From: an uncultured Pelagimonas sp.
Lineage (GTDB): Bacteria; Pseudomonadota; Alphaproteobacteria; Rhodobacterales; Rhodobacteraceae
Reading direction: 5' to 3'
DNA length: 64,000 nt
NCBI GenBank assembly: GCA_947499735.1
Contig: CANMPP010000003.1
Span: 186,001-250,000 of the forward strand
Under the pieces are notes generated by a model. The model did no database searches and was not told the DNA's origin. It was given only the letters and a program-made list of their open reading frames with translations. Of this stretch, positions 31,478 to 33,925 are shown in pieces (position 1 is the stretch's first letter; each line of letters opens with the position of its first letter). The position numbers and the translations under genes are program-made.

Positions 31478-31834
31478 TTATTGAATGATCTCGGATGCGT
31501 CAAAATCACCGAAAAATGGGGTGACTTGAGCGACAACTACGGCATTCTCGTCTTTGGCACGCTGCATCAAATCCTGTTCCTCTTGTGGGACATCATGTCC
31601 TGACGCGAGGCGTTCTTCCAAGGTTCCGTATCCAGTGACATCCAACGGTGCCATATCCGCCTGCTTTAGCAAGGCAACGGTTTCGCGCACTGCTTCGGCT
31701 TCATCTATGCCGCTGGCATAGCATAGAATGCCTGCACCGCTGGCTTTCTTCGGCAAGCCGTCTTGGTCCTTGCGTCCAACTTGGACAAGCAAAGTGTAGA
31801 CGAAGGTCTGTTTTTTGTTTTCGCGTTTTGTCAT
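31478..31834 (-). CDS. hypothetical protein upstream of dapE
   Basis: A 118-residue protein without a family I can name. It has a short basic start (MTKRENKKQ), then alternating strands and helices ([38 protein letters not shown]) and an acidic C-terminus. There is no signal peptide or membrane segment. The compact alpha/beta pattern suggests a small ferredoxin-like fold. It precedes dapE by 37 bases, so the operon is probably this gene-dapE-GNAT-TIGR04282. Start 31834 is chosen; the longer frame would reach into the divergent promoter region. Confidence 0.6.
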
Positions 31835-31961
31835 CGCACTTTGCGTGCCAGATATCGCAGAGATGAGCAAGCCACTCTTGCGTGTCTGTTCATTTTTGAA
31901 CAATAAGGTTATGGGGACCAAAAGTGGAATGCGTCTTGGTATGCAAAGAAGACTTCAATCA

Positions 31962-33092
31962 ATGAATCGCCATGAACAAAATCAGCGGATCGCGACGGTT
32001 GGGCTGCGCCCTTGGTCGATGTTACTTGCAACATGCACGCTGATTTACGTCGTGCTGCACTTTGTTTTGGGGACAGCGGCTTTTGCGCAGGATGCGCTAA
32101 AGGGCAATTTGCGTATTGCGACTATTGAACGCCCTCCGTTTTCGATGATTGAAAACGACGAAGCCGCCGGATTTAGTGTCGAATTGATGCGACATATTGC
32201 GGCGGCCAATAATTATACCGTGGATTTCACATATTTTGGCAGCTTCCCCGATATGTTGGCAGCTGTTGAAAGCAATGAATATGATGCTGCCATTGCCAAT
32301 ATTTCGATCACGCGAGATCGTGAAGCTGCGATGGATTTCTCGCAACCCATTTTCGACAGTGGATTGCAGATCATGGTTCATGAAACCCCGGGCAGCGTGT
32401 CGCTGCTACGCACTCTGCTGAATTGGGAATTGGCCCTTGTCATGGTCCTATCATTCTCCGGGCTGTTTGCCTGTGGCATTCTGATGTGGGTTTTTGAACG
32501 CCGCAAACAGCCCTATTTTGATCGCGAATTGGGCGAGGCGCTGTTTCCGTCCTTTTGGTGGGCCTTAAACCTTGTGGTGAATGGTGGCTTTGAAGAACGC
32601 CAACCGCGATCATTGCCAGGGCGCATTTTTGCCGTTCTCTTGGTTGTCTCTAGCCTGTTCATTGTGTCCATATTTGTGGCCCATATCACGGCGGCTATGA
32701 CCATCGAGGCGATCAATTCCTCTGTGAATTCAATACAGGATCTAGATGGTCGGCGGGTGGCCACAACAGAAGAATCAACGACCAGTCGTTTCTTGGACAG
32801 CCGCGGTATCGGGCATGCCACATATGATACGTTTGGCGGTTTGATTGAGGCCTTTGAGGAGGGCGATTTGGACGCTGTGGTGTTTGATGGCCCTCTACTG
32901 GCATATTATTTGCGCAGTCACCCTAGAACGCATGGGTATCTTGTGGATGTGGTGTTCCAACCAGAAACATACGGTATCGCGCTGCCAAGCGGCAGCATGC
33001 TGCGCGAAGAGCTGAATGTGGAAATTTTGGAAATGGGTGAAACTGGCGCATATGATGCGTTGAAAGCAAAGTGGTTTGGCCAGTCTCGCTAA
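31962..33092 (+). CDS. ionotropic glutamate receptor-like protein (GluR0-type architecture: S1-TM-pore-TM-S2)
   Basis: A 376-residue membrane protein whose solute-binding domain is split by a two-helix channel module. Order: N-terminal signal/anchor (about 17-43); ligand lobe S1 (47-143) with SITRDREAAMDFS, where Arg120 would bind an amino-acid carboxylate; TM1 (156-178); re-entrant pore region FPSFWWALNLVVNGGF (195-210); TM2 (219-248); ligand lobe S2 (258-376) with DAVVFDG, where Asp309 would bind the amino group. This is the layout of prokaryotic glutamate-gated channels. The K+ filter TVGYG of GluR0 is replaced by VVNGG. The start is uncertain: several in-frame Met codons lie between 31815 and 31962. 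Confidence 0.72.
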   Translation: MNRHEQNQRIATVGLRPWSMLLATCTLIYVVLHFVLGTAAFAQDALKGNLRIATIERPPFSMIENDEAAGFSVELMRHIAAANNYTVDFTYFGSFPDMLAAVESNEYDAAIANISITRDREAAMDFSQPIFDSGLQIMVHETPGSVSLLRTLLNWELALVMVLSFSGLFACGILMWVFERRKQPYFDRELGEALFPSFWWALNLVVNGGFEERQPRSLPGRIFAVLLVVSSLFIVSIFVAHITAAMTIEAINSSVNSIQDLDGRRVATTEESTTSRFLDSRGIGHATYDTFGGLIEAFEEGDLDAVVFDGPLLAYYLRSHPRTHGYLVDVVFQPETYGIALPSGSMLREELNVEILEMGETGAYDALKAKWFGQSR

Positions 33093-33145: not shown

Positions 33146-33925
33146 CTAGAGCCGTGACAAAAGCTCGGCTTTTTTGGCGCTGAATTCTGCATCTGTCAAA
33201 ATGCCTTGATCACGCAAATTGCCCAGTTGTGTAAGTGCGTCAAAGATCTGGCTTTGATCTGCATCTGCATCTGCACTTGCGCTGGTTTGCTGCGGTCCTT
33301 CTGGCGCTGCAACGGGTGCAGCAGGTTGCGTGGCTGGAGCTGGGGTTTGATTTTCCAATTCAGGCCCTGCGATGATTTGCAGATCAAGTGTTGATACATT
33401 TCCAAACTGGGACGTGAAGATAACCGATGTACCGCTGCCTTGTTGTTGGCTGACGCCGCCAATCATATGTTGGCCCGTGTCAAACACCCGAACGTTTCCG
33501 TCAATCAGTGTCGCCAATCGGGCGGATTGCGGGAACACCGCATAACCCATATTGTTTTGCATGCCTGTTGAAGATGGCTGCCCCAAATCCGCTGGCCACC
33601 ACTGACCACCGCCCAAAGACATGCCGCCCGCGCCCCTAACGGGTTGGGGTGCATAAAAGGATCCATTGAAATAGGATTGAGACAGGCTTTGGCACAGGTT
33701 TGATACCAACGCCTGCAGCCCGCTGTTGAACATGTCGCCTACCATAACCATGCCGCCGGCCTGCCATTGGCCCATGCCGCCGATTTCGGGGTGGCTGAAT
33801 TGTGCTTGATTGCCGCCACCTGCGCTGATCGCATCCATCATGCTGCGCACGGCATCTTGGCTAAGGCCAAATTGCTGAGCAGTATTGATCATCACGGACT
33901 GGCCGTGGTCGGAAAGCTGTTGCAT
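33146..33925 (-). CDS. SHOCT-domain protein
   Basis: A 259-residue protein. The last 35 residues (IFDALTQLGNLRDQGILTDAEFSAKKAELL) form a SHOCT motif, a short C-terminal oligomerisation/interaction element. A Pro/Ala/Gln-rich linker (about 190-222) separates it from a central region of unknown family. The N-terminal part is glycine/methionine rich (GGMGQWQAGGMVMVGDMF). There is no signal peptide. The sequence gives no enzyme motif. It lies between the channel-like gene and dapD. Confidence 0.7.
   Translation of the reverse strand: MQQLSDHGQSVMINTAQQFGLSQDAVRSMMDAISAGGGNQAQFSHPEIGGMGQWQAGGMVMVGDMFNSGLQALVSNLCQSLSQSYFNGSFYAPQPVRGAGGMSLGGGQWWPADLGQPSSTGMQNNMGYAVFPQSARLATLIDGNVRVFDTGQHMIGGVSQQQGSGTSVIFTSQFGNVSTLDLQIIAGPELENQTPAPATQPAAPVAAPEGPQQTSASADADADQSQIFDALTQLGNLRDQGILTDAEFSAKKAELLSRL

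Follow-up and report, generated by a model that had tools for sequence, protein, structure and literature searches.

A Rhodobacterales homologue of ionotropic glutamate receptors with a conserved NGGFEE segment in place of the potassium filter

According to our analysis, the gene at positions 31962-33092 of the window (the whole 64,000-nucleotide stretch of DNA analysed, from an uncultured Pelagimonas sp.) encodes a genuine prokaryotic homologue of the ionotropic glutamate receptors (iGluRs), with the order S1, M1, re-entrant pore, M3-like helix and S2. Its pore carries NGGFEE where K+-type relatives carry the filter TVGYGD, and this segment is kept nearly unchanged among orthologues. From the sequence, the structural model and the analogy with animal receptors, we consider it probable that the product is an amino-acid-gated tetrameric cation channel of the inner membrane which is not K+-selective and is perhaps Ca2+-permeable.

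Domain layout and predicted fold

The open reading frame extends from ATG 31962 to the stop at 33092 and specifies 376 residues. Its start codon is uncertain, as further in-frame ATGs are present at 31911 (preceded by AAGG) and 31941, and conservation does not decide among them because the similarity between orthologues begins downstream of the candidate ATGs. The features are as follows, in window coordinates.

31478..31834, minus strand: orf147, conserved divergent neighbour, 118 aa from ATG 31834, no Pfam family
31962..33092, plus strand: prokaryotic iGluR-like gene, 376 aa (ORF, Pfam, orthologues, model, fold matches)
32010..32096, plus strand: N-terminal hydrophobic helix, residues 17-45, probable signal peptide (AFA-QD) or signal anchor (model helix, sequence reading)
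32106..32384, plus strand: S1 half of the amino-acid-binding domain, residues 49-141 (SBP_bac_3; aligns with the Nostoc GluR0 ligand core 2pyy)
32319..32321, plus strand: Arg120, putative alpha-carboxylate-binding arginine
32424..32498, plus strand: M1, residues 155-179 (model helix)
32529..32582, plus strand: re-entrant pore helix, residues 190-207 (model helix)
32580..32597, plus strand: selectivity-filter segment NGGFEE, residues 207-212 (register alignments, orthologue counts)
32613..32720, plus strand: M3-like inner helix, residues 218-253 (model helix, alignments)
32721..33080, plus strand: S2 half of the binding domain, residues 254-373 (Pfam, structure alignments)
32886..32888, plus strand: Asp309, putative alpha-amino-group-binding aspartate
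33146..33925, minus strand: SHOCT-domain protein, 259 aa, between the iGluR-like gene and dapD (Pfam)

The protein matched three Pfam families above their cut-offs, namely, SBP_bac_3 (1.3e-25, spanning residues 50-374 and hence split), Lig_chan (4.5e-13, residues 167-265), and Lig_chan-Glu_bd (5.5e-10). It is the sole Lig_chan match of its own genome, and none was obtained in 14 control genomes. An AlphaFold2 monomer model, built on the alignment of 29 orthologues, had a pLDDT of 84 and placed helices at residues 17-45, 155-179, 190-207, and 218-253, with values of only 61-80 in the linkers and in some of the M1-pore region. The best PDB matches retrieved by Foldseek were AMPA-receptor LBD-TMD subunits (about 363 columns, E value of 2.8e-25, 24% identity), which cover the predicted structure along its whole length, and the M1-M3 stretch by itself matched GluA2 at 2.6e-6. 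The binding domain agreed closely with that of L-glutamate-bound Nostoc GluR0 (2pyy; Z of 30.8, rmsd of 1.4 Å over 212 residues, 37% identity) and with that of GluR0 in 1ii5 (Z of 28.7). Pfam, the model, and the PDB folds concur on the arrangement typical of prokaryotic iGluRs, in which the S1 and S2 halves of an SBP_bac_3-type domain are split by M1-P-M3. They bear out the GluR0-type split architecture (S1, M1, re-entrant pore, second helix, S2) that a reading made from the letters alone had proposed, and both profile families named in that reading, Lig_chan and SBP_bac_3, were recovered.

The same sequence-only reading had placed Arg120 and Asp309 at ligand-holding positions, and both residues are invariant in the alignment of 29 orthologues. 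An S1 Arg and an S2 Asp are given as conserved ligand contacts of both Group 1 and Group 2 prokaryotic proteins by Ger et al. 2010 (PMC2950845). Both the M4 helix and the N-terminal domain are absent, since the ORF stops right after S2 and only the signal-like helix precedes S1. The R and K residues found in the M1-P and P-M3 linkers fit a cytoplasmic location according to the positive-inside rule.

Register and conservation of the pore

In the ungapped alignment with K+-type bacterial iGluRs, the K+ filter TVGYGD faces N207-G-G-F-E-E212 (32580-32597). The pore aligns without gaps from FWW to PxxxxGR, with FWWALNLVVNGGFEERQPRSLPGR on FWWAAVTMTTVGYGDKAPITKAGR, and the register that pairs FWWALNLVVNGGFEERQPRS with FWWAAVTMTTVGYGDKAPIT scored 48, which none of 2000 shuffles reached, against 9 at the next offset. 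The GluR0-type (Group 1) signature T-x-V/I-GYG is thus lacking, and only G209 is retained from the K+ filter. The sequence-only reading had set VVNGG in the place of TVGYG; VVNGG is indeed encoded at 32574-32588 and the absence of the K+ filter was rightly noted, but the proposed register was shifted by two residues.

When the pore was compared with GluN1, whose letters were checked against PDB chains, the best ungapped offset set NGGFEE on NSGIGE (46 versus 1; 0/2000 shuffles). In GluA2, whose letters were also checked and whose edited chains show the Q-to-R change at the Q/R-site residue, the Q/R-site Gln faces N207 and the +4 Asp faces E211. By alignment, N207 therefore takes the Q/R/N site, which is Asn in GluN1, and E211 the acidic +4 position, as in the pore tip of eukaryotic receptors. 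To our knowledge, the adjacent E211 and E212 are the exact pattern of no characterised iGluR. The segment following the pore loop is PRSLPGRI, compared with PRSLSGRI in GluA2, and the M3-like helix bears SIFVAHITAAMT where animal receptors have the SSYTANLAAFLT gate motif; it reads FVAHITAAMT, not SYTANLAAF, and the animal motif is only loosely kept. Once the register is corrected, so that an Asn occupies the Q/R/N site and acids occupy +4 and +5, the "different selectivity" of the earlier reading becomes a specific prediction.

Among 41 sequences, made up of the query plus 40 orthologues retrieved by peptide patterns in which pore pieces were included, the mean pairwise identity of the filter was 98%, compared with 58% for the whole mature protein, 86% for the pore helix (residues 190-206), 68% for M3, 57% for M1, 56% for S1, and 53% for S2. 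By this measure, the filter is the best-conserved part of the protein. NGGFEE is present in 82 of 86 close orthologues, although about half of all orthologues came from a search seeded with pore peptides; the subset obtained with a whole-protein profile, where it occurs in 40 of 43 loci and the remainder have NGSFEE, NGGFEV, and SGGFGQ, gives the fairer count. The ungapped alignment with K+-type bacterial iGluRs and the strong conservation among close homologues uphold the view of a non-potassium pore, and the conservation contradicts the outcome that would have undone it, in which the insert is a pair of plain anchors without a conserved pore. An identity of 98% in the filter against 58% in the protein favours a working pore over two ordinary anchors or a decaying pore.

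Bacterial relatives

In a tree computed with the filter columns left out, the NGGFEE proteins form one group (bootstrap of 100, SH-aLRT of 97), neighboured by proteins with NASFTI, MGGFEK, and DGGP loops (95/90). The K+-type proteins (TVGYGD or TIGYGD) are located in other parts of the tree, some of them belonging to the same bacterial family as the NGGFEE clade, and the state changes between K and non-K at least four times. Judging from these sequences, bacteria seem to have exchanged the filter on several occasions.

GluA2 and GluN1 were placed on long branches outside all bacterial rows. Trees in which they group with the NGGFEE clade were nevertheless not rejected (AU p values of 0.64 and 0.86) and had a likelihood above that of the quick tree. 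K+-type bacterial proteins have Lig_chan scores that equal or exceed those of the clade. The proposal that the clade is the closest bacterial relative of eukaryotic iGluRs is thus not supported. A shared origin of the non-K+ pore with eukaryotes is neither supported nor rejected, and the eukaryote-like Asn site may be convergent or shared.

Other non-K+ loops of proteobacterial iGluR-like proteins are the short TQAD, the longer SGKxxx or SGRxxx, and K/RGPFNY, observed at loci L046 and L047 (in both, with the pore near mid-locus), L064, L066, L070, L107, L140, and L146-L150. Weak Lig_chan matches within the same phylum (mostly family f38, one f57) were set aside, since the seven that were read (L067-L069 and L071-L074) are small TVGYGD channels of 221-260 aa that belong to another family.

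Distribution and gene neighbourhood

Of the 248 genomes in the window's Rhodobacterales family, about 53, or roughly one in five, have the close clade, and a sample covering 385 genomes of the class yielded no close orthologue outside this family. Its usual site is the dapE/orf147/dapD locus, which also occurs without the gene. In the 43 orthologous loci, some of which are incomplete, the divergent orf147 lies beside or near the gene in 36, dapD lies downstream in 33, and LOG is present in 26. In many genomes without the gene, orf147 still adjoins dapD and/or dapE; at L170, L172, and L174, the gap between orf147 and dapD is tens of bases or fewer. The pattern suggests a stable locus into which the iGluR-like gene was optionally inserted or from which it was lost. 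We rejected the dapE/dapD neighbourhood as a hint to the ligand, since the adjacency of orf147 and dapD persists in many related genomes without the gene and the dap genes are therefore uninformative in this respect. The SHOCT-domain protein had a match in none of the 43 orthologous loci and seems particular to this lineage.

Proposed function and alternatives

In the channel that we propose, four copies would assemble so that their re-entrant loops (190-212) and M3-like helices (218-253) form the pore. On the side predicted to be periplasmic, the S1/S2 clamshell would close over an L-amino acid bound through R120 and D309 and, in doing so, pull the M3-like helices apart and open the pore. A ring of Asn would form at the Q/R/N site, with the glutamates at +4 and +5 towards the cytoplasm, and the pore would pass cations without K+ selectivity, i.e., Na+, K+, and probably Ca2+, so that an amino acid arriving from outside would lead to depolarisation of the cell or to a rise in its internal Ca2+. 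K+ selectivity is not expected because NGGFEE, with the Asn ring and the glutamates, replaces TVGYG. A cation-permeable and perhaps Ca2+-permeable pore is suggested by analogy, since NMDA receptors require an Asn at the Q/R/N site in order to let Ca2+ through (PMC13246513), and both block and permeation of animal iGluRs are controlled by the Q/R/N residues and the +4 acid (PMC12226733); for Ca2+, the argument draws on these two positions only. As G209 is all that is kept of the K+ filter, conduction is not guaranteed, and the many other filters of the bacterial relatives indicate that filters drift and that some lineages may have non-conducting pores. We lean somewhat against the most far-reaching version, although it is a real possibility: a Ca2+-permeable, non-selective amino-acid-gated cation channel with an NMDA-like Asn site and acids directly beneath it. 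Through such a channel, amino acids would trigger an electrical or Ca2+ signal in marine Rhodobacterales, and structural biologists would gain a homomeric model, 376 residues long, of a non-K+ iGluR pore.

The protein could instead be a non-conducting amino-acid sensor derived from an iGluR, with a permanently closed pore and conformational signalling to a membrane partner. Loss of the K+ filter and the short or scrambled filters of several bacterial relatives (TQAD, SAG, SGKxxx) would agree with this, and the fold itself requires no partner. Yet a dead pore should decay, which is at odds with the filter identities given above, the 376-aa protein contains no cytoplasmic signalling domain, and, in the 43 orthologous loci and the ten Pfam-tested neighbours, none of the conserved genes nearby belonged to an obvious signalling family, so that we deem such a sensor unlikely. 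We give an equally low probability to a K+-permeable or K+-preferring GluR0-like ligand-gated channel, where N-G-G-F-E would act as a degenerate T-V-G-Y-G. The ungapped alignment with TVGYGD retains the central Gly and an aromatic residue at the Tyr position, and K+-type relatives exist in the same bacterial family, but T and V are gone, the second G has become Glu in essentially all orthologues, and K+ filters are not known to tolerate an acidic residue at this Gly. A membrane-anchored ABC solute-binding protein with two ordinary TM anchors inserted in its domain is largely refuted and highly improbable, because, even though SBP_bac_3 is the top Pfam match and the LBD is similar to glutamine-binding proteins, what is inserted consists of a re-entrant pore helix with a filter, is conserved above the binding domain, and matches Lig_chan and AMPA TMDs, and no ABC permease or ATPase lies among the ten neighbours tested. 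The sequence-only reading had dismissed an ABC binding protein for want of adjacent transporters; Pfam likewise found no transporter family among these ten neighbours (28.7 to 38.1 kb), but this is a weak argument, the real one being the conserved M1-P-M3 insert.

Among bacterial iGluRs, channel function has been characterised in GluR0, which is a K+ channel and so does not explain how animals and plants came by their non-K+ pore. The clade shows a bacterial iGluR pore whose K+ filter was replaced by Asn and acids and then strongly constrained. The protein is small and probably homomeric, and the selectivity of the cation channel that we favour is testable by the exchange of NGGFEE and TVGYGD. 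If Ca2+ or Na+ were conducted, marine bacteria would own a fast amino-acid-to-voltage sensor.

Comparison with known systems

The protein shares the domain order and the ligand core with GluR0 (Synechocystis Slr1257) and Nostoc punctiforme GluR0, whereas GluR0 is K+-selective with a TVGYG-type filter in the position of NGGFEE. With GluN1 and GluA2, it shares the pore alignment, N207 on the Asn or Q/R site, E211 on the +4 Asp of GluA2, and the full-length fold, but it has neither N-terminal domain nor M4 and is only about 24% identical. GlnH/ArtJ-type solute-binding proteins (SBP_bac_3) have the fold and the amino-acid clamp of S1/S2 but are without the M1-P-M3 insert and are partnered with ABC permeases; a soluble or lipid-anchored protein with a partner permease and ATPase does not describe the present one, which has a pore insert and no ABC genes among ten neighbours.

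The nearest counterpart is found in Ger et al. 2010 (PMC2950845), who described 22 prokaryotic proteins of this topology. Of these, 12 have a K+ filter (Group 1); the other 10 lack it (Group 2), and the authors saw in their P regions no likeness to a channel of known selectivity. The gene at 31962-33092 fits Group 2, and its kind is already known, since S1-M1-P-M3-S2, the S1 Arg and S2 Asp, and the lack of a K+ filter, of M4, and of an N-terminal domain are shared; neither the NGGFEE motif nor the Q/R/N register is given in its text (PMC2950845). Among the titles listed from the open-access literature, we found no functional study or current measurement of a Group 2 bacterial iGluR. The Group 2 set probably includes roseobacter proteins; we take YP_168531.1 to be a Silicibacter pomeroyi protein. 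What the present analysis adds is the register of the filter, the constraint on NGGFEE, and the clade that carries it.
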